Shown: positions 33,256 to 64,000 of the stretch, in pieces | How the letters are laid out: every line of letters begins with the position of its first letter | Position numbering within the stretch: position 1 is the stretch's first letter | NCBI GenBank assembly: GCA_011523425.1 | Contig: WTGU01000073.1 | Span: forward strand, 1-64,000 | Length of the DNA: 64,000 bases | Direction of reading: 5' to 3' | From: Alphaproteobacteria bacterium | GTDB taxonomy: Bacteria > Pseudomonadota > Alphaproteobacteria > UBA828 | The notes under the pieces: model-generated | The model's input: the letters and a program-made list of their open reading frames with translations, nothing else | Databases searched by the model: none | Told to the model about the DNA's origin: nothing | Program-made: the position numbers and the translations under genes

Positions 33256-35595
33256 ATGAATACCGGACCACAGGTTGCGACGATGCGGCGCATCAGCGAG
33301 ATGACCGAGACCCGTTTCGACGGCGTGACCCATCCCTACGTGCCGCCGCGCGAGCTCTCCATCTCGGAGTCCCTCACCCTCCATCGTGACTGGGAGACCG
33401 ACATCGACCCGGTCACCTACGAGGTGATCCGCCACAACCTCTGGAACATCAACGAGGAGCACGGCGCCACCATCCAGCGCATCTCCGGCTCGCCGGTCGC
33501 CATCTACGCGCTGGACCTCAATCCCTCGATCCTCACCGAGGACGCCGAGTTCGTCTATTTCGGCCCCTACATGCAGTACATGTCGGGCGTCACCGACACG
33601 CAGGTGAAGTGGATCCTGGAGAACCGCAGCGACAATCCCGGCATCCGCGAGGGCGACATGTTCCTCGCCAACGACCCCTGGGTGGGTGCCGCGCACCAGA
33701 TGGACGTGATGGTGATCTGCCCGGTGTTCTGGGAGGGCGAGCTCTTCTGCTGGATCACCAACTGCCTGCACCAGTACGACATCGGCGGCATCACGCCGGG
33801 CAGCTTCTGCCCCGCCGCCGAGAGCGCCTTCGACGAGGGGATTCTGATTCCGCCGGTGAAGATCGTCGAGAACGACGTGGTCCGCCGCGATATCGAGGAA
33901 CTCTACCTGCGCTCGTCGCGCAAGCCGGAGATGGTGGCGCTCGATTTCCGCGCTCAGCTCGCCGGCAACATGAGCGCGCGCGAGCGCCTGCTGCAACTCG
34001 TGCGCCGCTACGGGCCGCGCACGGTCAAGGGCGTGATGAAGCGCATCATCGACAATGCGGAGACCGCCTTCCTCGCCAAGCTCGAGCGCCTGCCCGACGG
34101 CGCCTGGAGCGACCGCACCTATGTCGAGGCCTGCCGGCCGGGAGACCGGCGCACCCACCGGGTGCAGATCACCGTCACCAAGAAGGGCGACCGGCTGATC
34201 TTCGACAATGACGGCACCGCGCCCCAGGACGGCGCCATGAACGCCACCTATTCCGGCTGGCGCGGCTCGGTCATGGTGGCGATCAACGAACTGCTCGCGT
34301 GGGACCAGTATTTCGCGGTGGGCGGTGCGCTCCGCCACATCGACTTCGACCCCACCGCCGGCACGCTCAACTGCGCCGATTTTCCGGCCAGCGTCTCGAC
34401 CGCGCCCACCCAGTCGATGGAGATATCGCTCTACCCCGCCTACAACGCGATCTCCAAGATGCTCTACTCGGACGAGACCCTGCGCGGCGACATCATGGGT
34501 ATCGGCGGCACCAGCCAGTGGCCGGCCACCCTCTTCCGCGGCATCGACCAGTGGGGCGAGCGCTACGGCTATCTCCTGATCGACCCCATCGGCGGCTCCA
34601 TCGGCGCGTTCGCGCATGCCGACGGCATCAACACCGGCGGCCAGGCGCGCACGCCGATCTGCCAGCTCCCCAACGTGGAGCACAACGAGCAGAACTTCCC
34701 GCTGCTCGTGCTCTACCGCAAGGAGCTGCCGGATTCGGGCGGTGCCGGCAGGTATCGCGGCGGGCTCTCGGCCGAGACCTGCTTCATCCCCCACAACACC
34801 GACCGCATCACCCAGGACACGCTGTCGTCCGGCAACGCGACGCCGACGTCGACCGGCATGATGGGGGGCTTCCCGTCCACCACCAACGCCTACCAGTTCA
34901 TCCGCGAGAGCGACATCCTGGAGCGCATGGCCTCGAGCCGCATGGTGGAGGACCATTCGGAAGTCGCCGGCCGGCCCGAGCACCTGGAGCTCAGGCAGGA
35001 GAACTTCGACCAGCTCCCGGCGGACGTCTACGCCGTGCGCTGGTCCGGCGGCGGCGGCTTCGGCGATCCCCTGCGGCGCGAGCCCGCCAAGATCCAGCAC
35101 GATCTCCTGCACCGCAACATCACGCCCGACGCGGCGCGGACGATTTTTGGGGCCGTACTGGGCGAGGACGAGGTGACGGTGGACGCGGACGCGACCGCGC
35201 GCAACCGCGCCGCCGTTCACGCCGACCGCCTCGCCCGGCTCGGCAACGGCGCATCGCCGCCGCCCGGGCGCGACGGCAGCCTCCGGCTCCACGCGACCGA
35301 TGCGCTCGACGTGCGCGAGGATGCGGCCGGGGCCTACTGGGCCTGCGGCGCGTGCGGGGCGTCCCTCGGCCCGCTCGATGCCAACTACAAGGACGCCTGC
35401 CTGCAGGACGTGCGGCCGGTCTCGGAGTCCAATCCGCTGATCGGCGACCCCGCCCTCTTCGTGGACGATCCGGTGGAATTCCGGCTCTTCTGCTGCCCCG
35501 GCTGCGGCGCCCAGATCGAGAACGAGATCGCCGTCGCCACCGACCCGATCCTGCGGGATATCTCCGTTGCGCTTCCGGCCGCGTCCGATGGCTGA
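33256..35595 (+). CDS. hydantoinase B/acetone carboxylase alpha-like protein with zinc-ribbon tail
   Basis: A 779-residue protein. Residues about 50-625 match the HyuB / acetone carboxylase alpha family: 'DPVTYEVIRHNLWNINEEHG', 'DMFLANDPWVGAAHQMDV', and 'VRWSGGGGFGDPLRREP' near the end of the domain. Residues about 690-770 add a small domain with Cys697-x2-Cys700 and Cys747-x2-Cys750 followed by 'GAQIENEIAV', which resembles the acetone carboxylase gamma subunit and probably binds zinc. The ATP-using HyuA/beta-type partner is not next to it. The substrate is unknown. It begins 34 bp after lpd and overlaps the aminotransferase by eight bases. Other in-frame ATGs at the N terminus make the exact start uncertain by up to 15 residues. 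Confidence 0.82.
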   Translation: MNTGPQVATMRRISEMTETRFDGVTHPYVPPRELSISESLTLHRDWETDIDPVTYEVIRHNLWNINEEHGATIQRISGSPVAIYALDLNPSILTEDAEFVYFGPYMQYMSGVTDTQVKWILENRSDNPGIREGDMFLANDPWVGAAHQMDVMVICPVFWEGELFCWITNCLHQYDIGGITPGSFCPAAESAFDEGILIPPVKIVENDVVRRDIEELYLRSSRKPEMVALDFRAQLAGNMSARERLLQLVRRYGPRTVKGVMKRIIDNAETAFLAKLERLPDGAWSDRTYVEACRPGDRRTHRVQITVTKKGDRLIFDNDGTAPQDGAMNATYSGWRGSVMVAINELLAWDQYFAVGGALRHIDFDPTAGTLNCADFPASVSTAPTQSMEISLYPAYNAISKMLYSDETLRGDIMGIGGTSQWPATLFRGIDQWGERYGYLLIDPIGGSIGAFAHADGINTGGQARTPICQLPNVEHNEQNFPLLVLYRKELPDSGGAGRYRGGLSAETCFIPHNTDRITQDTLSSGNATPTSTGMMGGFPSTTNAYQFIRESDILERMASSRMVEDHSEVAGRPEHLELRQENFDQLPADVYAVRWSGGGGFGDPLRREPAKIQHDLLHRNITPDAARTIFGAVLGEDEVTVDADATARNRAAVHADRLARLGNGASPPPGRDGSLRLHATDALDVREDAAGAYWACGACGASLGPLDANYKDACLQDVRPVSESNPLIGDPALFVDDPVEFRLFCCPGCGAQIENEIAVATDPILRDISVALPAASDG

Positions 35596-37066: not shown

Positions 37067-38509
37067 ATGCGGCCGCGTCGGCCTGTCACAGCGCTGCTGT
37101 GCCTCTGGCTCTGGCTCTGGCTCTGCGTCACGGTCGCGGCTGCGGTGCCGGCACAGGCGGCCGACGAGGACCTAGACCGCGCGCTCGCCCGCGTCATCGC
37201 CTCACGCGGGCTGGAGCCCCTGGAGCTGCCGCCGCTGGTGCCCTCGCCCAAGTTCCGGCTGGGCCAGATGCTGTTCTTCGACCCCATCCTCAGCGGTACC
37301 CGCGACGTGGCCTGCGCCACCTGCCACCTGCTGGGCCGCGGCACCTCCGATGCGGTCGCGCTCTCGGTGGGCGTGGACGCAGCCGGGCTCGCGGAGGAGC
37401 GCCGGCCGCTGGGTGCGCCGCGGGTGCACCCGCGCAACTCGATGGACCTCTGGAACCGCGGCCACGAGAGCGTGCGCAACATGTTCTGGGACGGACGGGT
37501 GAGCGAGATCGAGGCGCCGGTCAGCCGCTTCCGCACCCCGATGGGGGACTATCTGCCCGACGGGCTCGAGAGCGTGCTCGCCGCGCAGGCGCTCTTCCCC
37601 CTCGCCGGCGAGGAGGAGATGCTGGGGCTCGCGCACGACCGCTCGGCGCCGGATCTCCCCGGCGGCCACGGCGACAGGCCGAACGAGATCGCGCTCGCGG
37701 CGCTCGGCCTGGACGAGGACGAGCCGCAGCTCTTCGTCGCGGTCCACGACGCGCTCATGCGCCGGCTTCTCGGCCGGGCCGGCACGCCGCTCGCCGACTG
37801 GCAGATCGCCTACCGCCGGCTCGTCGGCCGGGCCTATCCCGAGCGGATGCTCGGCGACATCGCCATGGGCGACCTCGCCAACGCCATCGGCCACTTCCAG
37901 GCGCTCGCCTTCGTCACGCGCGACACGCCGTGGGACCGCTACCTCGCGGGCGATGCAGGCGCGATCGGCGAGGCGGCGAAGCGGGGCGCGCTGCTCTTCT
38001 ACGGCAAGGCCCGCTGCGCCGCCTGCCACAGCGGCCCGCTCTTCAGCGACTTCCAGTTCCACTCCCTCGCCGCGCCCCAGATCGGCCCCGGCATCGACGA
38101 AAGCGGCGACGATCGCGGCCGCTTCGAGGCGACGCGCATCCCCCGGCACCTCTACCAGTTCCGCACGCCGCCGCTCCGCAACGTCACGCTCACCCCGCCC
38201 TACTTCCACAGCGGCGCCGTCACGAGCCTGGCCGACGCCATCGACCATCATCTCGCGCCGCCGGCGGTCGCCGGGGCCGGTGTCGAAACCGCCGGCGAGG
38301 AAGCGCCGGACCCAGCGATCGAGGCGCTGCGCCGCGAGAGCTTTTCGCCCATGCTCAGGCGTGGCGTGGCGCTCAGCGAGGACGAGCGCGCGAGCCTCCT
38401 CGCCTTCCTCGAGAGCCTGGAGGACGCCCAGACCGGGCGCCGGCCCTTGATCGTGCCCGAAAGCGTGCCGAGCGGCCTGCCCGTGCCCGCGCTCGTCGCC
38501 GGAAATTGA
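37067..38509 (+). CDS. dihaem cytochrome c peroxidase / MauG-family protein
   Basis: A 480-residue exported dihaem protein. The signal peptide contains a short codon repeat ('LWLWLW') and ends near 'AQAA' (residues 28-32). The two haem c motifs are Cys-Ala-Thr-Cys-His at 83-87 and Cys-Ala-Ala-Cys-His at 317-321. 'FRTPPLRNVTLTPPYFHSG' in the C-terminal half is typical of the CcpA/MauG family. It would act in the periplasm, either removing H2O2 with a cytochrome donor or oxidising a protein or metabolite as MauG does. It starts 84 bp after the aminotransferase. Confidence 0.88.
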   Translation: MRPRRPVTALLCLWLWLWLCVTVAAAVPAQAADEDLDRALARVIASRGLEPLELPPLVPSPKFRLGQMLFFDPILSGTRDVACATCHLLGRGTSDAVALSVGVDAAGLAEERRPLGAPRVHPRNSMDLWNRGHESVRNMFWDGRVSEIEAPVSRFRTPMGDYLPDGLESVLAAQALFPLAGEEEMLGLAHDRSAPDLPGGHGDRPNEIALAALGLDEDEPQLFVAVHDALMRRLLGRAGTPLADWQIAYRRLVGRAYPERMLGDIAMGDLANAIGHFQALAFVTRDTPWDRYLAGDAGAIGEAAKRGALLFYGKARCAACHSGPLFSDFQFHSLAAPQIGPGIDESGDDRGRFEATRIPRHLYQFRTPPLRNVTLTPPYFHSGAVTSLADAIDHHLAPPAVAGAGVETAGEEAPDPAIEALRRESFSPMLRRGVALSEDERASLLAFLESLEDAQTGRRPLIVPESVPSGLPVPALVAGN

Positions 38510-38625: not shown

Positions 38626-39411
38626 GTGTTCACGAGTAATCCCTTCGCCGCGCTTTCGGATTCCATCTCGTCCACCGCCATACAGACCTACGTCATCGTC
38701 ATGATCGCCCTGGTCGTGGGCGGCACCCTGTTCGACGTCTGGCACAAGAGGAGCGCCGCCTACTTCTTCGCAAGCTGGCGCAACGCGCAGGCCAAGGGGA
38801 CGCGGCGGGTCGCCGGCGGGACGATCGCGGGGCTCGCGGTCCGGACCGCGTTGGTGGAGGTCCTGACGTCCGCCGAATTCGGCCTCGGCCGCCGCCGGGT
38901 CGCCCACCTGCTGACGATGTACGGCTTCCTGCTCCATGTCGCGACCACCATCGTCATGGTGTTCTGCTACCCGACGGCCGCCACGCCGACGCCCGCCGTC
39001 CTGCCCCAGCTCTGGGTCGCAGGCGCCCTGCTGGTCATGGTCGGCGGCTACTGGTTCTGGTTCTTCATTCGGGTCGACGTGGCGGCCGAGGGCCACACGC
39101 CGTTCCGCATCATGCGCGCGGACCTGTTCATCCTCTCGCTTCTCGCCAGCGCGACGCTCGGGCTGATCTGGGCCGGCCTGCAGTCGATCGAGAGCGCCGG
39201 GACGAACGTGCTCCTCGGCCTCTACCTCGTCGCCACGACGGTGCTGTTCGGCTCCGTTCCGTGGTCCAAGTTCTCGCACATGTTCTTCAAGCCCGCGGCG
39301 GCCTTCGAGAAACGGGTGTCCGAAGCGGCCGGCTCCAGGAGCAACCTGCCGGCGCCGGCCGACGAGCCCGAAACCCTCGGCAGCGCCCGCGAAAGGCCAA
39401 GTCATTACTGA
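38626..39411 (+). CDS. aprM: AprM-like membrane anchor of APS reductase
   Basis: A 261-residue integral membrane protein with about five hydrophobic helices (for example 'TYVIVMIALVVGGTLFDVW', 'LLHVATTIVMVFCYP', 'LWVAGALLVMVGGYWFWFFI'). It lies directly before aprB and aprA. In sulfur-oxidising bacteria a membrane protein called AprM occupies this place and is thought to link AprBA to the quinone pool, whereas sulfate reducers use the Qmo complex. The start is GTG at 38626 after a good ribosome site (ggagag, 38614-38619). The call rests mainly on context and topology. Confidence 0.75.
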   Translation: MFTSNPFAALSDSISSTAIQTYVIVMIALVVGGTLFDVWHKRSAAYFFASWRNAQAKGTRRVAGGTIAGLAVRTALVEVLTSAEFGLGRRRVAHLLTMYGFLLHVATTIVMVFCYPTAATPTPAVLPQLWVAGALLVMVGGYWFWFFIRVDVAAEGHTPFRIMRADLFILSLLASATLGLIWAGLQSIESAGTNVLLGLYLVATTVLFGSVPWSKFSHMFFKPAAAFEKRVSEAAGSRSNLPAPADEPETLGSARERPSHY

Positions 39412-39454
39412 TCGGCCCACCATCGCTCTCGGAAAGAGGAGCTAACCGACCCCC

Positions 39455-39916
39455 ATGCCGACCTTCGTCTACATGACCCGCTGCGACGGCTGCGGCTACT
39501 GCGTCGATATCTGCCCCTCGGACATCATGCACATCGATAAGACCTACCGGCGCGCCTACAACATCGAGCCCAACATGTGCTGGGAGTGCTACTCCTGCGT
39601 GAAGGCGTGTCCGCAGAACGCCATCGACTGCCGCGGCTACGCCGACTTCGCTCCGCTGGGCCACAGCGTCCGGACGCTGAGGGAGGAGGCGAAGGGCACC
39701 ATCTCCTGGAAGATCAAGTTCCGGGACGGCAGGGAGAAGGACTTCGTCTCCCCGATCCGCACCACGCCCTGGGGATCGATCAGGCCGCCCGCCGACTACG
39801 AGACCCCCAGCGCAGAGGCGATGAAGTCCCAGGAGCTCGCGCACGAGCCGGACGCGCTCCATGTGGACGCGCTGCCCGCGATGGCGCCGGAGCGGTTCAA
39901 GGAGGGCCTCCTCTAG
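39455..39916 (+). CDS. aprB: adenylylsulfate reductase, beta subunit (ferredoxin-like)
   Basis: Iron-sulfur subunit of APS reductase, 153 residues. Two [4Fe-4S] clusters are bound by Cys10-x2-Cys13-x2-Cys16-x3-Cys20 and Cys42-x2-Cys45-x2-Cys48-x3-Cys52. The rest forms the beta-sheet and C-terminal arm that wraps around AprA ('WGSIRPPADYETPSAEAM'). It passes electrons between AprA's FAD and the membrane partner. An AGGAG ribosome site precedes it. The stop overlaps the aprA GTG by one base. Confidence 0.93.
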   Translation: MPTFVYMTRCDGCGYCVDICPSDIMHIDKTYRRAYNIEPNMCWECYSCVKACPQNAIDCRGYADFAPLGHSVRTLREEAKGTISWKIKFRDGREKDFVSPIRTTPWGSIRPPADYETPSAEAMKSQELAHEPDALHVDALPAMAPERFKEGLL

Positions 39917-41760
39917 TGGGTCTCTTCTCGCGTCGGAAGACGGTCTTCGTGGATGCGGACATCCTGGTGGTCGGCGGCGGCATGGCCGGCTGCGGGGCGA
40001 CCTACGAGGCCGGCTACTGGGGGCGCGACCTGAAGGTGGTCTGCGTCGAGAAGGCGAACATCGAGCGCAGCGGCGCCGTGGCCCAGGGCCTCTACGCGAT
40101 CAACTGCTACATGGGCATGCAGTGGGACGAGAACCAGCCCGAGGACCATGTCCGCTACGCCCGGAACGACCTCATGGGCCTGGTGCGGGAGGATCTCGGC
40201 TACGACATCGCACGCCACGTCGATTCCACGGTGCACAAGTTCGAGGAGTGGGGCCTTCCCATCATGCGGGACCCGGAGACCGGGCGCTATCAGCGCGAAG
40301 GCAAGTGGCAGATCATGATCCACGGCGAGAGCTACAAGCCGATCGTCGCCGAGGCCGCCCGCAAGGCCGCGGCCGAAGTCTACAACCGGATCATGGTGAC
40401 CCACCTGCTGACGGACCGGACGAAGCCGGGCCGCGTCGCCGGCGCCGTCGGCTTCAACGTCCGCACCGGGGATTTCCACGTCTTCCGCGCCAGGGCCGTC
40501 ATCGTGGCGGCCGGCGGCGCCTCGCACATCTTCAAGCCCCGTGCGGTGGGCGAGGGGATGGGGCGCACCTGGTATGCGCCCTGGAGCAGCGCGTCGGCCT
40601 ATGCGCTGCCGATCCTCGTCGGCGCCAAGATGACCCAGATGGAGAACCGGATCGTCCTGACCCGCTTCAAGGACGGCTACGGCCCGGTCGGCGCCTACTT
40701 CCTCCACCTCAAGACCTACACCGAGAACGCCTACGGCGAGGAGTACGAGTCCAAGTGGTATGACCACACCAAGGCGCTGGTCGGCGACTACATCGACATG
40801 CATCCGGTGCCGACCTGTCTGCGCAACCACGCGCTGCTGGAGGAGATCAAGGCCGGCCGGGGACCCATCCGCATGGTGACGACCGAGGCCTTCGCCGACC
40901 CGCACAAGGAGCAGGTCGGCTGGGAGAATTTCCTGGGCATGACCATCGGGCAGGCGGTGGTCTGGGCCTCCCAGAACATCGATCCCAAGCACACCAACCC
41001 GGAGCTCACCACGTCCGAGCCCTACGTCATGGGCTCGCACGCCACCTGCTCGGGCGCCTGGGCAAGCGGTCCGGAGGACTGCGCGCCGGCGGCCTACCAG
41101 TGGGGCTACAACCGGATGATGACCGTCGACGGGCTGTTCGGCGCCGGCGACACCATCGGCGGCTCCGCCCACAAGTTCTCGTCGGGCTCGTTCACGGAAG
41201 GCCGGATCGCCGGCAAGGCGGCGGTCAACTACGTCAACGACCTCAAGGGCGAGCAGCCCCAGGTCAGCGAGCAGGAGTACGAGGACCTCAAGAAGACCGT
41301 CTTCCAGCCGCTCGAGACCTACAGGGTGGGCCGCAACGAGATCGTCGCGGGCACGGTCTCGCCGAGCTACATGCTGCCGCTTCACGGCCTCCAGCGCCTC
41401 GAGAAGATCATGGACGAGTATGTGGGCGGCATCAGCGCCGCCTACACGACGAACGAACCCATGCTCACGCGCGGGCTGGAGTTGCTGGCCATGCTAAGGG
41501 AAGACCTCGACCATCTGGGGGCCGAAGACCTGCACCAGCTTCAGCGGGCGTGGGAGCTTCACCACCGGGTGCTCGCCTCGGAGTCCGTGACCCATCACAC
41601 GATGTTCAGGACGGAGACGCGCTGGCCCGGATACTACTATCGCGGCGATCATCCGAAGCTGGACGACGCCGAATGGCACTGCTTCACGCTCTCACGCTAC
41701 GACCGCGAGTCCGGGGAATGGGCCATGGAGAAGGCCCCCGTCTACCACATCGTGGACTAG
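39916..41760 (+). CDS. aprA: adenylylsulfate reductase, alpha subunit (FAD)
   Basis: Catalytic flavoprotein of APS reductase, 614 residues from GTG 39916. It belongs to the fumarate reductase / aspartate oxidase fold: FAD loop 'ILVVGGGMAGCGATYEAGYW', 'CVEKANIERSGAVAQGLYAI' and a later 'DGLFGAGDTIGGSAHKFSSG' in the FAD and substrate region. Signature AprA segments such as 'INCYMGMQWDENQPEDHVRY' and 'HPVPTCLRNHALLEEIKAGRG' are present. In sulfur oxidisers it runs from sulfite plus AMP to APS, in sulfate reducers the other way. The AprM-type anchor and the aerobic-type TCA genes suggest the oxidative direction here. The enzyme is cytosolic. Confidence 0.95.
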   Translation: MGLFSRRKTVFVDADILVVGGGMAGCGATYEAGYWGRDLKVVCVEKANIERSGAVAQGLYAINCYMGMQWDENQPEDHVRYARNDLMGLVREDLGYDIARHVDSTVHKFEEWGLPIMRDPETGRYQREGKWQIMIHGESYKPIVAEAARKAAAEVYNRIMVTHLLTDRTKPGRVAGAVGFNVRTGDFHVFRARAVIVAAGGASHIFKPRAVGEGMGRTWYAPWSSASAYALPILVGAKMTQMENRIVLTRFKDGYGPVGAYFLHLKTYTENAYGEEYESKWYDHTKALVGDYIDMHPVPTCLRNHALLEEIKAGRGPIRMVTTEAFADPHKEQVGWENFLGMTIGQAVVWASQNIDPKHTNPELTTSEPYVMGSHATCSGAWASGPEDCAPAAYQWGYNRMMTVDGLFGAGDTIGGSAHKFSSGSFTEGRIAGKAAVNYVNDLKGEQPQVSEQEYEDLKKTVFQPLETYRVGRNEIVAGTVSPSYMLPLHGLQRLEKIMDEYVGGISAAYTTNEPMLTRGLELLAMLREDLDHLGAEDLHQLQRAWELHHRVLASESVTHHTMFRTETRWPGYYYRGDHPKLDDAEWHCFTLSRYDRESGEWAMEKAPVYHIVD

Positions 41761-41940
41761 CGTTTCGTTCGGGACGCTTCCGTCCATGAGCACCGCGCTC
41801 CCAACACGTCATGCCCGGACTCGTTCCGGGCATCCACGTTCTTTGCCCTTGCTGCAGGAAAAACCGGTGGATGGCCGGGACAAGCCCGGCCATGACGTCG
41901 CGGGTTCGAGCGCGCGGGGCGCCCCAGGCGTGGACGGCTC
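41761..41940. repeat. REP-like palindromic element between aprA and sat
   Basis: Two long inverted arms at 41807-41838 and 41866-41897. Each is itself a hairpin (CATGCCCGGACT...CCGGGCATCC and GGATGGCCGGGAC...CCCGGCCATG), and the outer ends CGTCATG/CATGACG are also complementary. The whole can fold into a 91-nt structure around the less GC-rich centre 'ttctttgcccttgctgcagg'. Such 'gtcatggccgggcttgtcccggccatcc' elements are abundant between genes in many Alphaproteobacteria. It may stabilise or attenuate the apr message. Confidence 0.8.
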
Positions 41941-43197
41941 GTGGCTGCCCTGATCCCCCCTCACGGCGGCGCCTTGCGGCCCCTGCTGCTGCCGGCGGGC
42001 GAGCGGGAGGAGGCGCTGAAGAGGGCACGCACCCTGAAGAAGCTGCCGCTGTCGACGCGCGAGGTCTCGGACCTCTTCATGCTCGCCATGGGCGCCTACA
42101 CGCCGCTCGCGGGCTTCATGGGCGCGGCCGACTGGCGCGGCGCGTGCCTCGAGATGCGGCTGGAGAGCGGGCTCTTCTGGCCGCTGCCGGTCACGCTTTC
42201 CTGCGACGAGGACGCCGCCGTCGCCGCCGGCGACGAGGTGGCGCTGACGGACGCGGGCGGAGAGATCCTCGGCATCCTCGCGGTCGCCGAGACCTACGCC
42301 ATCGACAAGGCTCTCGAGTGCCACGAGGTCTACCGCACCACCGACGCGGCCCATCCGGGCGTCGCCAAGGTCATGGCGCAGGGTGCGGTCAACCTGGCGG
42401 GCCCGGTCACGGTCCTCTCCGAGGGCCACTTTCCCGAGACCTACCGGGGGCTCTACCTGTGCCCCGCCGAGACCCGGGCCCTCTTCGCCGGGAAGGGCTG
42501 GTCGACGGTCGCCGCCTTCCAGACCCGCAACCCCATGCACCGCAGCCACGAGTTTCTCGCCAAGGTCGGCCTCCAGGTGTGCGACGGGGTGCTGATTCAC
42601 CAGGTCCTCGGCGCGCTCAAGGCAGGCGACATCCCGGCCGAGGTCCGGGTGCGCGCCATCGACTGGCTGGTCGCCAACCACTTCCCGGAAGGGAGGGTGA
42701 TCCAGGCCGGCTATCCCATCGAGATGCGCTACGCCGGCCCGCGGGAGGCGCTGCTGCACGCCCTCTTCCGCCAGAACTTCGGCTGCTCGCACCTGGTGGT
42801 GGGGCGTGACCATGCCGGGCTCGGCGACTATTACGGGCCCTACGACGCGCAGCGCATCTTCGACGAGATCGGGGCGGACAGCCTCGCCATCCGGCCGCTG
42901 AAGGTGGACGACACGTTCCATTGCTTCGACTGCGCGGGCATGGCGACGGGGAACGTCTGCTTTGCGCCCGACGGCGGCAAGGAGCGGGCGAGCGAGGAGG
43001 AGCGCCACCGGGCGGTGGCGGCGGTAGCGACGGGCGCCGCCCCCGGCCGGCCCTGCCGCGAGGGCGACGGCGGAAAGCTCCGCATCTCGGGCACCCGGCT
43101 GCGCGCGATGTTCGCGAACGCCGAGGCGATCCCGCCCGAGTACAGCCGCGACGGCGTGCTCGCCATCCTCCGGGCCTATTACGACCGCACCCCGTGA
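41941..43197 (+). CDS. sat: ATP sulfurylase (sulfate adenylyltransferase)
   Basis: Homomeric Sat-type enzyme, 418 residues, that interconverts APS plus pyrophosphate with ATP plus sulfate. The nucleotide-binding motifs are 'QTRNPMHRSH' at 194-203 (Gln-x-Arg-Asn and two His) and 'GRDHAGLGDYY' starting at 288. This is the single-chain dissimilatory type, not CysDN. Downstream of aprBA it would release sulfate from APS and yield ATP by substrate-level phosphorylation. The start is GTG at 41941, 180 bp after aprA with the REP element between, so it may have separate regulation. Confidence 0.95.
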   Translation: MAALIPPHGGALRPLLLPAGEREEALKRARTLKKLPLSTREVSDLFMLAMGAYTPLAGFMGAADWRGACLEMRLESGLFWPLPVTLSCDEDAAVAAGDEVALTDAGGEILGILAVAETYAIDKALECHEVYRTTDAAHPGVAKVMAQGAVNLAGPVTVLSEGHFPETYRGLYLCPAETRALFAGKGWSTVAAFQTRNPMHRSHEFLAKVGLQVCDGVLIHQVLGALKAGDIPAEVRVRAIDWLVANHFPEGRVIQAGYPIEMRYAGPREALLHALFRQNFGCSHLVVGRDHAGLGDYYGPYDAQRIFDEIGADSLAIRPLKVDDTFHCFDCAGMATGNVCFAPDGGKERASEEERHRAVAAVATGAAPGRPCREGDGGKLRISGTRLRAMFANAEAIPPEYSRDGVLAILRAYYDRTP

Positions 43198-58498: not shown

Positions 58499-59926
58499 AT
58501 GAGCCAGCCTGCCGAGGCCGAAATCTTCGAGCGCGACCCGGTTGCGATCGTCGCCGCGCTGGTCCGTCGCGCCCGCACGGCCATGGCGGCCTTCGCCCAT
58601 TCCGATCAGGCGCGGGTGGACGAGGCGGTGACCGCGATCGCCTGGTCGCTCTACAAGCCCGAACACGCCGAGGCGCTCGCCATGATGGCGGTGGACGACA
58701 CCGGCCTCGGCAACGCGGCCGACAAGGTCGTCAAGAACCGGCGCAAGACCTTCGGCACCCTGCGCGACCTGATGCGGGTGAAGAGCGTCGGCATTATCGA
58801 GGAGCTGCCGGCGCTCGGGCTGGTGAAGTACGCGAAGCCGGTCGGCGTGGTCGGCGCGGTGACGCCGTCGACCAACCCCGCGGCGACGCCCGTGAACAAG
58901 ACGATGATGGCGCTCAAGGGGCGCAACGCGATCGTCGTCGCGCCCTCTCCCGCCGGCCTCGCGACCACCGCCCGGGCGGTGGCGCTGATGCGGGCGGAGC
59001 TGGAAAAGATCGGCGCGCCTGCGGACCTGGTGCAGGTGCTGCCTGCGCCCGTGGACAAGGCGATCACTCAGGCGCTGATGGCGGCCTGCGACCTGGTGGT
59101 CGTCACCGGCTCGCAGAGCAACGTGCGCGCCGCCTACCGCAGCGGCACGCCCGCGATCGGGGTGGGTGCCGGCAACGTCCCGGTCATCGTCGATTCCAGC
59201 GCGAAGCTCGACGAGGCGGCGGCGAAGATTGCCGCCTCCAAGTGCTTCGACAACGCGACCTCGTGTTCCTCTGAGAACGCGCTGATCGTTCTCGACGACG
59301 TGTACGACGATGCGCTTGCCGCGCTGCAGCGCGCCGGCGGCTACCTGGCGGACGCGGCGGAGAAGGAGGCGATCCGGCGTACCCTCTGGGTCGACGGAAG
59401 GCTCAACCGGCGGGTCATCGCGAAGGATTTTGGGGTCTTCGCGGTCGAGTGCGGTCTCGAAGGCCCGGCGCCCGGCGCCCGCTTCGTCATGGTCAAGGAG
59501 ACCGGGATCGGCCCCGAGCATCCGTTCTCCGACGAGAAGCTCGCCCTGGTGCTCGCCGTCTATCGCGCGCAGAGCTTCGACGATGCCGTGGGCAAGGTGC
59601 GTGCGATCATGGACGTCAAGGGCCGGGGCCACTCCGTCGGCATTCACACCGAGGAGATGGCGCATGCCCGCCGTCTCGCCGAGGAGCTCGATACCGCGCG
59701 GGTCCTCGTGAACATGGCGCATACGTTCGGGAACGGAGGCGGCTTCGACAGCGGCCTCAACTTCACCCTCTCCATGGGGTGCGGGACCTGGCAGGGCAAC
59801 AGCATCAGCGAGAACCTCAACTACCGGCACTTCCTCAACATCACCCATCTCGCCGTCCCGATTCCCGAAGACAAGCCCAGCGAAGAGGCGCTGTTCGGCG
59901 ACTACTGGGACAAGTACGGGACGTAG
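58499..59926 (+). CDS. acylating aldehyde dehydrogenase, probable sulfoacetaldehyde dehydrogenase (SauS-like)
   Basis: A 475-residue CoA-acylating aldehyde dehydrogenase of the EutE/AdhE N-domain/SauS branch. Catalytic Cys256 lies in 'NATSCSSENALIV', the equivalent of 'DNGxICASEQ' in AdhE. 'VGAVTPSTNPAATPVNKTM' and 'KPVGVVGAV' form the CoA/NAD pocket entry. Known SauS proteins convert sulfoacetyl-CoA and NAD(P)H to sulfoacetaldehyde reversibly. Other possibilities are acetaldehyde, succinic semialdehyde or 3-sulfolactaldehyde-type substrates. The following two genes encode an acid-CoA ligase and pta lies nearby, which fits the sulfoacetate route best. Start ATG 58499; the open frame upstream is not family sequence. 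Confidence 0.75.
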   Translation: MSQPAEAEIFERDPVAIVAALVRRARTAMAAFAHSDQARVDEAVTAIAWSLYKPEHAEALAMMAVDDTGLGNAADKVVKNRRKTFGTLRDLMRVKSVGIIEELPALGLVKYAKPVGVVGAVTPSTNPAATPVNKTMMALKGRNAIVVAPSPAGLATTARAVALMRAELEKIGAPADLVQVLPAPVDKAITQALMAACDLVVVTGSQSNVRAAYRSGTPAIGVGAGNVPVIVDSSAKLDEAAAKIAASKCFDNATSCSSENALIVLDDVYDDALAALQRAGGYLADAAEKEAIRRTLWVDGRLNRRVIAKDFGVFAVECGLEGPAPGARFVMVKETGIGPEHPFSDEKLALVLAVYRAQSFDDAVGKVRAIMDVKGRGHSVGIHTEEMAHARRLAEELDTARVLVNMAHTFGNGGGFDSGLNFTLSMGCGTWQGNSISENLNYRHFLNITHLAVPIPEDKPSEEALFGDYWDKYGT

Positions 59927-59965: not shown

Positions 59966-61111
59966 GTGGACTTCGAGGAGCATGCGGCGAAGCCGCTGCT
60001 GCGGGCGGCAGGCATCGCGATCCCGCGCGGCAGGCTCGCGCGGAGCGCCGCCGAGGCCGAGGCCGTCGCGGCGGAACTCGCGGCGCCGGTGGTGGTCAAG
60101 GCCCAGGTTCCGCAAGGCAAGCGCGGCAAGGCCGGTGGCATCCGTGTCGCGGGCGATCCCGCGGCCGCGCGCGCGGCGGCCGGCGCGATCCTCGGCATGG
60201 AGATCGCGGGGCATCGCGTCGCCTCGGTGCTGGTCGAGGAGCGCGCGCCGGTCGCCGCCGAGTACTACGCGGCGATCCTGGGCGACGCGGCGTCACGAGC
60301 GCCGCTGGTGATCTTCTCCTCCGAGGGCGGCATGGACGTGGAGGAGATCGCGGCGTCGATGCCGGAGCGGCTGCGGCAGGCGAGCGTGGACATCCTGCGC
60401 GGACTGGACCTCGAGACCGCAGGCGCGATGCTGAAGGGCCTCGGCCTCGGCGCCGACGAAGGGCCGGTCGCCGAGACCCTCGTGGCGCTCTATCGCGCCT
60501 ACCGCGACAACGACGCCGAGCTTCTCGAGGTCAATCCCCTCGCCCGGCTCGATAACGGGCGCCTGGTCGCGCTCGATTGCAAGTTCACCCTCGACGATTC
60601 CGGGATCCGGCGCCGGGAGGAGCTCGCGCGCCGAGGATGCCCCGAACCGCTCACGGCGCTGGAGGCGCGCGCACAGGCGCTGGGGCTGAGATACATCGAG
60701 CTCGACGGGGACATCGGCGTGCTCGCCAACGGCGCCGGGCTCACCATGACCACCATGGACGTGATCGCGCACCACGGGGGGCGGGCGGCGAACTTCCTGG
60801 AAATCGGCGGCGACGCCTACACCAAGGGAGCGCCGGCGCTGGAGATCGTGCTCGCCAATCCCAGGGTGCGGTGCCTCGTGGTGAATTTCTGCGGCGCCTT
60901 CGCGCGAACCGACGTGATGACCGCGGGCGTGCTCGATGCCTGGGAGGCGCTTGTGCCCGCCATGCCGGTCTTCTTCAGCGTGCGCGGCACGGGCTCGGCG
61001 CAAGCGCGGGAGATGCTCCGCGAACGGCTCGGCGTGACACCCTACGGGACGATGGACGAGGCGATCGTCGCCGCTGTCGCCGCGGCCCGCGATGCGGGCG
61101 GACGCCTATGA
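59966..61111 (+). CDS. SucC-like acid-CoA ligase beta subunit, non-succinate type
   Basis: A 381-residue ATP-grasp protein, second SucC homologue in the window. The nucleotide site is kept ('VVVKAQVPQGKRGKAGGIRV', 'LLEVNPLARLDNGRLVALDC'). The succinate loop is changed: the normal '[14 protein letters not shown]' reads 'CGAFARTDVMTAGV', and 'LEGTNV' reads 'VRGTGS'. This points to a different organic acid. The start is GTG at 59966, 39 bp after the aldehyde dehydrogenase, and the stop overlaps the alpha subunit start (ATGA). Sulfoacetate is the likeliest acid from the neighbours; malate or a hydroxy acid is possible. Confidence 0.8.
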   Translation: MDFEEHAAKPLLRAAGIAIPRGRLARSAAEAEAVAAELAAPVVVKAQVPQGKRGKAGGIRVAGDPAAARAAAGAILGMEIAGHRVASVLVEERAPVAAEYYAAILGDAASRAPLVIFSSEGGMDVEEIAASMPERLRQASVDILRGLDLETAGAMLKGLGLGADEGPVAETLVALYRAYRDNDAELLEVNPLARLDNGRLVALDCKFTLDDSGIRRREELARRGCPEPLTALEARAQALGLRYIELDGDIGVLANGAGLTMTTMDVIAHHGGRAANFLEIGGDAYTKGAPALEIVLANPRVRCLVVNFCGAFARTDVMTAGVLDAWEALVPAMPVFFSVRGTGSAQAREMLRERLGVTPYGTMDEAIVAAVAAARDAGGRL

Positions 61112-61977
61112 TCGTGCGCGGCGGAGACCGGGTGCTCGTCCAGGGGATCACCGGGCGGCAGGGCACCTACTGGACCGAGCGCATGCAGGCCTACGGAACC
61201 CGCGTCGTGGCGGGGGTGAACCCGAAGAAGGCCGGCACCCGGCATTGCGGCGTGCCGGTCTTCGCCACCGCAGGCGAGGCGATGCGCGAGGCGGGCTTCG
61301 ACCTCTCCGTCCTGTTCATTCCGCCGCTTGGGGCGAAGGCGGCGGCGCAGGACGCGATCGAGGCAGGCTGCGCGCGTCTCGTCGTGCTCACCGAGCACAT
61401 TCCGGTACAGGACGTGATGGAGATGCTGGCGATGGCACGCGCCAACGGCGCCGCCGTCGTCGGCCCGAACACCGCGGGCCTGGTGACGCCGGGCGCGTGC
61501 TTCGTCGGTTTCATGCCGGCGTTCGAGGCCGACGTCTTCCGGCCCGGCCGGGTGGGGGTGATCTCCCGCAGCGGAAGTCTCGGCACCTTGGTCTGCCTCA
61601 ACCTGGTGCAGGCCGGCTTCGGGCAGTCGGCCTTCATCGGCATCGGCGGCGACCCGATCGTCGGAACGACCACGCGCGACGCGCTGGAGGCGCTGGATGC
61701 CGACGCGCGCACCGATGCGGTCGTGGTGGTCGGCGAGATCGGCGGGACGATGGAGGAGGACGCGGCCGCCTACACGCTAGAGATGACCAAGCCCGTGGTG
61801 GCCTTCATCGCGGGCAGCGCCTCGCCGCCCGGCAAGAAGATGGGCCACGCCGGCGCGATCGTGATGGGCGACAGGGGCACCTATGCGTCGAAGCGCACGG
61901 CGCTCGAGGCGGCGGGCGTCGAGGTGCTGGACACGCCTTCCGAGGTCGGGCGCGCGCTTCAGGCGAGGCTCGGCTGA
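61108..61977 (+). CDS. SucD-like acid-CoA ligase alpha subunit, non-succinate type
   Basis: A 289-residue SucD homologue. The CoA loop '[20 protein letters not shown]' and phosphohistidine '[12 protein letters not shown]' are intact, so the enzyme should be active and form ADP. The acid-binding part differs strongly from the sucD gene at 26736: '[16 protein letters not shown]' reads '[16 protein letters not shown]' and '[11 protein letters not shown]' reads '[11 protein letters not shown]'. Together with the preceding subunit it forms a two-subunit ligase for an acid other than succinate. Translation is coupled to the beta subunit by the ATGA overlap. Confidence 0.8.
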
Positions 61978-62035: not shown

Positions 62036-63178
62036 ATGACCGATGCGAACCAGCCCGAGGTGCATCGCGGCCTGAAGGACCTCTGCTTCGACCGCTCGCC
62101 GACCACGCTGATCGACGGGCGGGCCGGCGAGCTCCGCTATCGCGGCTACTCCATCCACGATCTCGCCGCGCACTCCTCCTTCGAGGAGACCGCCTACCTG
62201 CTGCTGCATGGAGAGCTTCCGACGCGGTCCGAGCTGGACGCCTTTGACGGTGCGATGAAGGAGGCGCGCACGCTGCCCGGCGCGGTCCTGGACGTGATCG
62301 GCGCGGTGAAGGAGTCGCACCCCATGGACGTGCTGCGCACCGCGGTCTCCGCGCTCGCGGCGTTCGATCCAGAGACCGGCGACAACTCGCTGGAGGCGAC
62401 GCGCCGCAAGGGCATCCGACTCACCTCGCAGGTGCCGATGATCGTCACCGCGCACCATCACATTCGCCAGGGCCGGGAGCCGGTGCCGGCGAGCGCCGCG
62501 CTCGGCCATGCCGCGAACTTCCTCCACATGCTCAAGGGCGAGGCGCCGAGCGAGGATGCCAGCGGGCTGATGGACACCGACATGGTGCTGCACGCCGAGC
62601 ACGGCTCCAACGCATCCTCGTTCACCGCGCGGGTCGTCGTCAGCACCGACGCGAATCTGCACGCCGGCATCACCGCGGCGGTGGCCGCGCTCTCCGGGCC
62701 TGCGCACGGCGGCGCGGCGGAGAACGTGATGCGCATGGCCAAGGAGATCGGCGACCCGGTGAAGGCGGCGGCCTACGTCAAGGCGAAGCGGAAGGCGCGC
62801 GAGCCGATCATGGGCTTCGGCCACCGCGTCTATCGGGCCGAGGACCCCCGCGCCAGGCACATGCGCGAAGGGGTCAGGCGGCTTTCCGAAGAGATGGGAG
62901 AGCCCCACTGGCACGCGATCCTCGAGGCGCTGGTCGACGCGATGCGCCCCTATGCGCGCCACGGCGTCAACGTGAACGTCGATTTCTATGCGGGCGTCGT
63001 CTACTACCTGCACGGGATCCCGGAGGATCTGTTCGTGCCGATCTTCGCCATCGGCCGCATTCCGGGGTGGACGGTGCAGGCGATGGAGCAGCTCGAGAAC
63101 AACATCCTGATCCGCCCGCGCCTGCTCTACACCGGGCCCGAGGCCCGCGACTACGTTCCCATCGAGGAGCGGGGCTAG
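62036..63178 (+). CDS. citrate synthase / 2-methylcitrate synthase family protein
   Basis: A 380-residue citrate synthase of the shorter type without the N-terminal NADH-binding extension of E. coli GltA. Catalytic residues: His in 'VLHAEHGSNASSFTAR', His in 'GPAHGGAAENVM' and the 'GFGHRVYRAEDPRA' region with the substrate Arg. Full length distinguishes it from the short citryl-CoA lyase. It follows the SucD-like gene by 58 bp on the same strand. It could be the main TCA citrate synthase or a 2-methylcitrate synthase; the neighbours suggest use of acetyl-CoA made through Pta. ATG 62036 gives the family N terminus. Confidence 0.88.
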   Translation: MTDANQPEVHRGLKDLCFDRSPTTLIDGRAGELRYRGYSIHDLAAHSSFEETAYLLLHGELPTRSELDAFDGAMKEARTLPGAVLDVIGAVKESHPMDVLRTAVSALAAFDPETGDNSLEATRRKGIRLTSQVPMIVTAHHHIRQGREPVPASAALGHAANFLHMLKGEAPSEDASGLMDTDMVLHAEHGSNASSFTARVVVSTDANLHAGITAAVAALSGPAHGGAAENVMRMAKEIGDPVKAAAYVKAKRKAREPIMGFGHRVYRAEDPRARHMREGVRRLSEEMGEPHWHAILEALVDAMRPYARHGVNVNVDFYAGVVYYLHGIPEDLFVPIFAIGRIPGWTVQAMEQLENNILIRPRLLYTGPEARDYVPIEERG

Positions 63179-63477: not shown

Positions 63478-64000
63478 TCAGGCCATCGCCGCAGTGATCG
63501 CCGCGGCGGCCACGATGTCGTCCACCGTCGCCCCGCGCGAGAGGTCGCACACCGGCCGCGCGAAGCCCTGCAGGAAGGGGCCGATCGCGCGCATCCCGCC
63601 CAGGTGCTCGCAGAGCTTGTAGCCGATATTGCCGGAGTCGAGATCCGGGAAGACGAGGACGTTGGCCCTGCCCGCCACGTCGCTCAAGCCGGCGGCCTTG
63701 AGCGCGGCGACGCGCGGCACGAGCGCCGCGTCCGCCTGGAGCTCGCCCGCGATCGCGATGTCCGGCGCCCGCGCGCGCACGATCTCCACGGCGCGGCGGA
63801 CCTTCTCGACCCTCTCGTGCCTGGCGCTGCCATGGGTGGAGAACGAGAGCATCGCCACCCGTGCGGGCCTACCGAGCAAGCGCCGGGCGTTCCCGGCAGA
63901 GGCGATGGCGATGTCCGCGAGCGCATCCGCGTCCGGCTCGACGTTGACCGCGCAGTCGGCGAAGACGAGGGGCTCGCCGCCTGCGCGCGGCACCATGATG
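63478..64000 (-). CDS. pta: phosphate acetyltransferase, C-terminal part (cut by window edge)
   Basis: Only the last ~174 residues are in the window; the frame is open to the edge at 64000. '[20 protein letters not shown]' is the strongly conserved Pta segment (acetyl phosphate/CoA site). '[20 protein letters not shown]' and '[20 protein letters not shown]' are the C-terminal signature. Pta converts acetyl phosphate and CoA to acetyl-CoA. In bacteria degrading taurine or sulfoacetaldehyde, pta is usually next to xsc; if so here, xsc would lie just beyond the right edge. Confidence 0.93.

Follow-up and report, generated by a model that had tools for sequence, protein, structure and literature searches.

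The AprM-linked APS reductases of sulfur-oxidising bacteria (SOB Apr lineage I) were set apart by Meyer and Kuever from those of sulfate reducers and from the Qmo-linked lineage II, the AprM type of AprBA being regarded as characteristic of sulfur oxidisers (PMC2211403). In Allochromatium vinosum, Sat and Apr proved dispensable by genetics (PMC3779200). For 'Ca. Taurinisymbion ianthellae' in Ianthella basta, metaproteomics and the release of sulfate from taurine back a route from xsc on to aprAB-sat; sat is missing from most SAR11 (PMC10356861). Sulfoacetate clusters of the sauSCD/sauST kind are described from Bilophila wadsworthia, Cupriavidus necator and sponge symbionts (PMC12625764). The membrane protein AprM was described in 2013 as five helices that resemble neither any known domain nor any cofactor site (PMC3779200), and literature from 2021 and 2023 still handles it as an anchor or partner.

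The window analysed here, a stretch of 64,000 nucleotides on contig C103 of a 3.62 Mb genome (G000; 159 contigs, 99% complete) from an uncultured, seemingly heterotrophic alphaproteobacterium, carries intact aprM, aprB, aprA and sat genes on one strand (Table 1). We read them, with a probability of roughly 0.8, as an ordinary reverse APS pathway of the AprM type, which would dispose of sulfite released from C2 sulfonates, with predicted direction, substrates and electron acceptor. The first-pass annotation had recognised an AprM-like anchor, an AprB with eight cluster cysteines, an AprA and a Sat with both nucleotide motifs, and family scores together with individual residues, and gene position in the case of AprM, confirmed all of these. 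The NCBIfam cut-offs were exceeded by AprB (TIGR02060, 195 bits against 136), AprA (TIGR02061, 965 bits, E = 1e-290, against 642) and Sat (PRK04149, 457 bits against 387). The eight cluster cysteines of AprB are C10, C13, C16, C20, C42, C45, C48 and C52, with C59 as a further cysteine, and Trp43, which serves electron transfer between cluster I and the flavin, is kept. An alignment of 24 Sat showed both motifs conserved, QTRNPMHRSHE (RNP) and GRDHAG (GRD). The aprM gene lies directly 5' of aprB in the window and in the loci compared with it from other genomes; the aprMBA-sat set as a whole is far beyond chance and occupies the same place in congeners.

Table 1. Positions of the aprMBA-sat locus and the sulfonate cluster (window coordinates, continued past 64,000 on the same contig)
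Feature	Position	Strand	Description
aprM	38626-39411	+	261 aa; membrane protein; predicted cytochrome b anchor of NarI/QmoC type
aprB	39455-39916	+	153 aa; APS reductase beta subunit, two [4Fe-4S] clusters
aprA	39916-41760	+	614 aa; APS reductase alpha subunit (FAD); GTG start overlaps aprB stop
aprA-sat spacer	41761-41940	+	strong palindrome, two inverted 31-32 nt blocks
sat	41941-43197	+	418 aa; ATP sulfurylase
sauS	58499-59926	+	acylating sulfoacetaldehyde dehydrogenase; NF047625 768.7 bits (cut-off 600)
ADP-forming acyl-CoA ligase beta	59966-61111	+	candidate sulfoacetate-CoA ligase (SauC-like); succinate-CoA ligase beta models below cut-off
ADP-forming acyl-CoA ligase alpha	61108-61977	+	SauD-like; succinate-CoA ligase alpha models just below cut-off; conserved neighbourhood
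citrate synthase II	62036-63178	+	TIGR01800 440.8 bits (cut-off 421)
pta	63478-64000 in window, on to about 64437	-	phosphate acetyltransferase; assigned by reading and place
xsc	64452-66218; Xsc match at 64494-66215, 494 bases past window end	-	PRK07525 1017.7 bits (cut-off 620); TIGR03457 958.7 bits (cut-off 676)
tauC, tauB, tauA	66.3-69.2 kb, beyond window	-	best TauC/B/A matches below cut-offs

Full-length AprA was found in four of the seven congeners searched (G002, G003, G005 and G006) and a partial one, cut by a contig end, in G007; of the two AprA-less congeners, G001 keeps the order sat-puuE-mdh-sdhA near the end of a contig, and the other, G004, has a completeness of 62%. Where contigs allow, the neighbours of the locus are kept, with a hydantoinase-like gene plus an aminotransferase and/or MauG-like gene on one side and puuE-mdh-sdhA on the other; the contig of G002 stops just after aprA, so that the missing sat is uninformative there. 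The gap between aprA and sat is much shorter in G005, and about 4.4 kb of other genes lie between the two in G006 (L183:4895-8802) and G003 (L188:6345-10062), read by eye as isocitrate-lyase/PEP-mutase-like, another aldolase-like, fatty-acid-hydroxylase-like and GntR-like. The spacer of the window folds with a z-score of -3.3; its palindrome is present in a single copy in the window and resembles a mobile intergenic repeat, and a scan for promoters and terminators returned nothing. Just 5' of aprM lies a gene for a MauG-like di-heme protein (37067-38509), also seen in G002, G003 and G006; it was considered as a part of the system and rejected, as its score is below the cut-off and no match stands beside aprM in G005. 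Further upstream (33256-35595), a hydantoinase B/acetophenone carboxylase-like protein ends in a fused C-terminal domain that resembles acetone carboxylase gamma. Sat itself, single-copy in the genome, has an insertion of about 32 residues in its zinc-binding loop, shared with five congeners (L182, L183, L186, L188 and L189) and absent from the other 18 of the 24 aligned Sat; in the Sat of this genus, the usual C-P-H of the loop is replaced by C-R, and an extra cysteine inside the insertion is conserved.

Judged by its sequence, the APS reductase of the window is of the AprM-linked 'oxidative' type, SOB Apr lineage I, as opposed to the sulfate-reducer type, an assignment made on the basis of the AprA tree, the AprB loop and residue markers in AprA. 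A tree built from 45 AprA put the window protein with those of four congeners (support 100/99) inside an AprM-linked clade. The other side of the 100/100 split that sets this clade apart consists, on long branches, of just two reducer references, Archaeoglobus fulgidus and Megalodesulfovibrio gigas, and one alphaproteobacterial lineage II copy, which is the second AprA of G022. The AprM-linked clade holds records labelled Alpha-, Beta- and Gammaproteobacteria, a mixture that suggests lateral transfer, although the titles of MAG records may be wrong. AprB lacks the Qmo-docking KGxDK loop between Cys13 and Gly, its cluster I cysteines standing at 20, 42, 45 and 48 (compared with PMC2211403), and a longer loop is present at this site in the lineage II copies of G009 and G022; the loop between AprB elements 8 and 9, which is longer and acidic in lineage I, seemed by eye to have some two extra residues and to contain EE. 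Aligned to the Archaeoglobus enzyme, AprA keeps all listed catalytic and channel residues (including N74, E141, W144, W234, R265, R317, H398 and H446) bar two changes, F261 to Ile (Ile246 in the window) and D361 to Asn, the first of which is a lineage I marker according to Meyer and Kuever (PMC2211403). Matches to QmoC in the genome were AprM and one weak unrelated protein, both far below the cut-off. The first-pass annotation had taken AprM in the absence of Qmo as a mark of sulfur oxidisers, which agrees with these lineage I features and with the lack of any QmoC above cut-off; the AprA phylogeny it had proposed placed the protein in the oxidative clade, apart from sulfate reducers at 100/100, and the opposite outcome it had named, AprA among sulfate reducers together with a reductive dsr and qmo set, is contradicted by the tree and by a genome without DsrAB or QmoC above cut-off. 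A reading as a reductive, sulfate-reducer enzyme was ruled out by the tree, the AprB loop and the absence of DsrAB and QmoC. As a separate observation, G009 (L185) and G022 (L193) carry Qmo-type lineage II AprBA, about 50% identical, and G022 has both Apr types together with SoxB, a split NIR_SIR pair and RuBisCO.

The genome encodes CysI and no CysH, which could favour AprBA and Sat running reductively and feeding sulfite to CysI in place of the missing enzyme. The cysG-DUF2849-cysI-DUF934 genes (G000:C51, L178:7112-10936) are not joined by cysH, which in the relative G010 follows right behind DUF934, and the sole PF01507 protein of the 99% complete genome is a CysD-CysN'-CysC fusion of 717 aa (G000:C91, L190:3896-6049) comprising CysD, CysC and, between them, a C-terminal portion of CysN that lacks the GTPase domain. 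The fusion gene adjoins a sulfotransferase-like gene, and its product likely supplies PAPS for sulfation. APS reduction with ubiquinone as partner is uphill, and the reductive direction would be so here if ubiquinone is the partner. Five aprA-bearing congeners (G002, G003, G005, G006 and G007, one of them just 67% complete) lack NIR_SIR proteins altogether, and in these genomes Apr therefore cannot work in assimilation; linkage to AprM is a mark of the oxidative type (PMC2211403), and sulfite derived from Xsc would supply CysI directly. We therefore consider this assimilatory use very unlikely; since CysI occurs without CysH, it is probably fed by sulfite from sulfonates.

An oxidative pathway could also serve inorganic sulfur, be it sulfide, sulfur or thiosulfate, as it does in Chromatiaceae. 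Sulfur oxidisers are where AprM-type AprBA is typically met with (PMC2211403), and the relatives G009, G012 and G022 carry paired HdrC-like genes, perhaps sHdr clusters. In G022, SoxB is present as well, along with a second split NIR_SIR pair on C77. The first-pass annotation had called for a search for sox and dsr genes, and both SoxB and DsrAB turned out to be absent from the 99% complete G000, the sole NIR_SIR protein being CysI; RuBisCO was likewise not found. The lack of DsrAB, SoxB and HdrC-like QmoC matches rules out a classical sulfur oxidiser for G000 and largely refutes the inorganic reading for this genome, which leaves it highly improbable. Since no Sox, Dsr or sHdr-like genes turned up, C2 sulfonates such as taurine or sulfoacetate, and not inorganic sulfur, are the most likely source of the sulfite.

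A candidate source for such sulfite lies 15-23 kb from sat, in no shared operon with it. The genes run as sauS-CoA ligase pair-citrate synthase on the plus strand (58.5-63.2 kb) and pta-xsc-tauCBA on the minus strand, and the cluster is kept in G003 and G007 at 80-97% identity; the ligase pair adjoins sauS in the window and in two congeners. The Tau proteins and the ligase pair scored below curated cut-offs, and we infer their substrates for that reason. Among the 46 loci of SAR11 and its kin that offer 8 kb or more of sequence downstream of aprA, 42 have xsc within 10 kb on that side. The link between apr and sulfonate genes is looser in the genus of the window: in G007, the sulfonate cluster and puuE-sat-aprA lie on different contigs, and no Xsc above cut-off was detected in the apr-bearing G005 and G006, so other sources of sulfite must exist. 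The aprMBA-sat reading of the first-pass annotation is supported, with the source of sulfite changed to sulfonates.

Sulfite might instead be detoxified mainly by a protein of the sulfite-oxidase family or by SoeABC, with aprMBA-sat minor or redundant as in A. vinosum, which tolerates the loss of Sat and Apr (PMC3779200). A PF00174 protein of the sulfite-oxidase family (L179:675-1994) is indeed present in the genus; the check for sorAB proposed earlier placed it below the cut-offs for SorA, SorT and SoxC (245, 214 and 210 bits against 600, 570 and 420), and its gene adjoins unrelated genes. None of the six molybdopterin proteins was assigned as SoeA by the models they were compared with. A sulfite dehydrogenase of the SorA/SoxC type was rejected as the main route, being below all cut-offs, and we regard the wider possibility of another principal sulfite enzyme as very unlikely.

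In the proposed sulfonate-to-sulfate pathway, sulfoacetate would be converted to sulfoacetaldehyde by the candidate CoA ligase and SauS, and taurine imported by TauABC would reach the same intermediate through a putative deamination. Xsc would then split sulfoacetaldehyde into acetyl phosphate and sulfite, the acetyl group being taken on by Pta and citrate synthase. Sulfite and AMP would be joined to APS by AprBA, two electrons passing from the [4Fe-4S] clusters of AprB through AprM to the quinone pool, and Sat would turn APS and pyrophosphate into sulfate and ATP by substrate-level phosphorylation. We infer the reaction direction, flux and energy yield of AprMBA-Sat from sequence. On this reading, an alphaproteobacterial genus outside SAR11 joins the heterotrophs that appear to convert organic sulfonates to sulfate and ATP, which would link the turnover of taurine and sulfoacetate to the sulfur cycle in a genome holding none of the classical sulfur-oxidation genes looked for.

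The exit of electrons would depend on AprM, for which remote comparisons were informative. The C-terminal half of the QmoC model was matched by 37 of 37 diverse AprM (best E = 5.6e-13) and TcuB by 33 of the 37, and a profile-profile comparison with 15 TcuB-like proteins gave a probability of 95% (E = 3e-8); searches of AprM against PDB sequences gave no match, and those against Pfam none above cut-off. These profiles identify AprM as distantly related to the membrane cytochrome QmoC/TcuB. Two histidines of AprM are invariant, H94 (RRVAHLLTMYG) and H218 (KFSHMFFKP). H94 falls at TcuB H240 if five residues are counted back from the YGF that both proteins share, the ungapped neighbour being H241 (13/15), and H218 falls at H365; the H240/H365 pair is invariant in TcuB, and so are H261 and H347, for which AprM offers no counterpart. 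An AlphaFold model of AprM (pLDDT 79, pTM 0.73) predicted the surroundings of H218 poorly, and its seven best PDB matches in a fold search were all NarI, yet with E values of 0.2-0.6, which is support and not proof. In NarI, the heme ligands are H56-H205 (proximal) and H66-H187 (distal), and analogy with these suggests that the pair kept by AprM is the one nearest the cytoplasmic subunit. We give an even chance to AprM being a reduced cytochrome b of the NarI/QmoC/TcuB type that keeps H94/H218, has lost the second pair, and would pass electrons to the quinone pool through a single heme b near AprB. If true, this would tell what takes up electrons directly from the APS reductases of lineage I, and it narrows the electron exit of AprM-type enzymes to two testable histidines.

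Compared with known systems, the sulfonate cluster shares with the sauSCD/sauST clusters an acylating sulfoacetaldehyde dehydrogenase adjoining an ADP-forming CoA ligase (PMC12625764), which here stand together with genes for citrate synthase, Pta, Xsc and TauABC; unlike in those clusters, none of the genes read could be recognised as a TTT transporter. With SOB Apr lineage I (A. vinosum, Thiobacillus denitrificans and SAR11), the locus has in common the order aprM-aprB-aprA, the lack of the KGxDK loop, the conserved active site, the absence of Qmo (judged here by QmoC) and a linked Sat, whereas its Sat carries a genus-specific insertion and its host lacks Dsr and SoxB; sat lies downstream here and upstream in A. 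vinosum. SAR11 (Pelagibacterales) has the same AprM-type Apr with xsc linked to apr. There, xsc usually shares the strand of aprA at a distance of about 3.5 kb; here, it lies on the opposite strand, some 21 kb beyond the end of sat, and sat is present. 'Ca. Taurinisymbion ianthellae' combines TauABC, Xsc and Pta with AprAB and Sat leading to sulfate and substrate-level ATP, the route predicted here too, and it uses QmoAB-HdrBC where the window has AprM (PMC10356861); sauS and the CoA ligase pair lie within the cluster in the window. Collectively, the enzyme set itself is well known, and the same logic already occurs in SAR11 and sponge symbionts.
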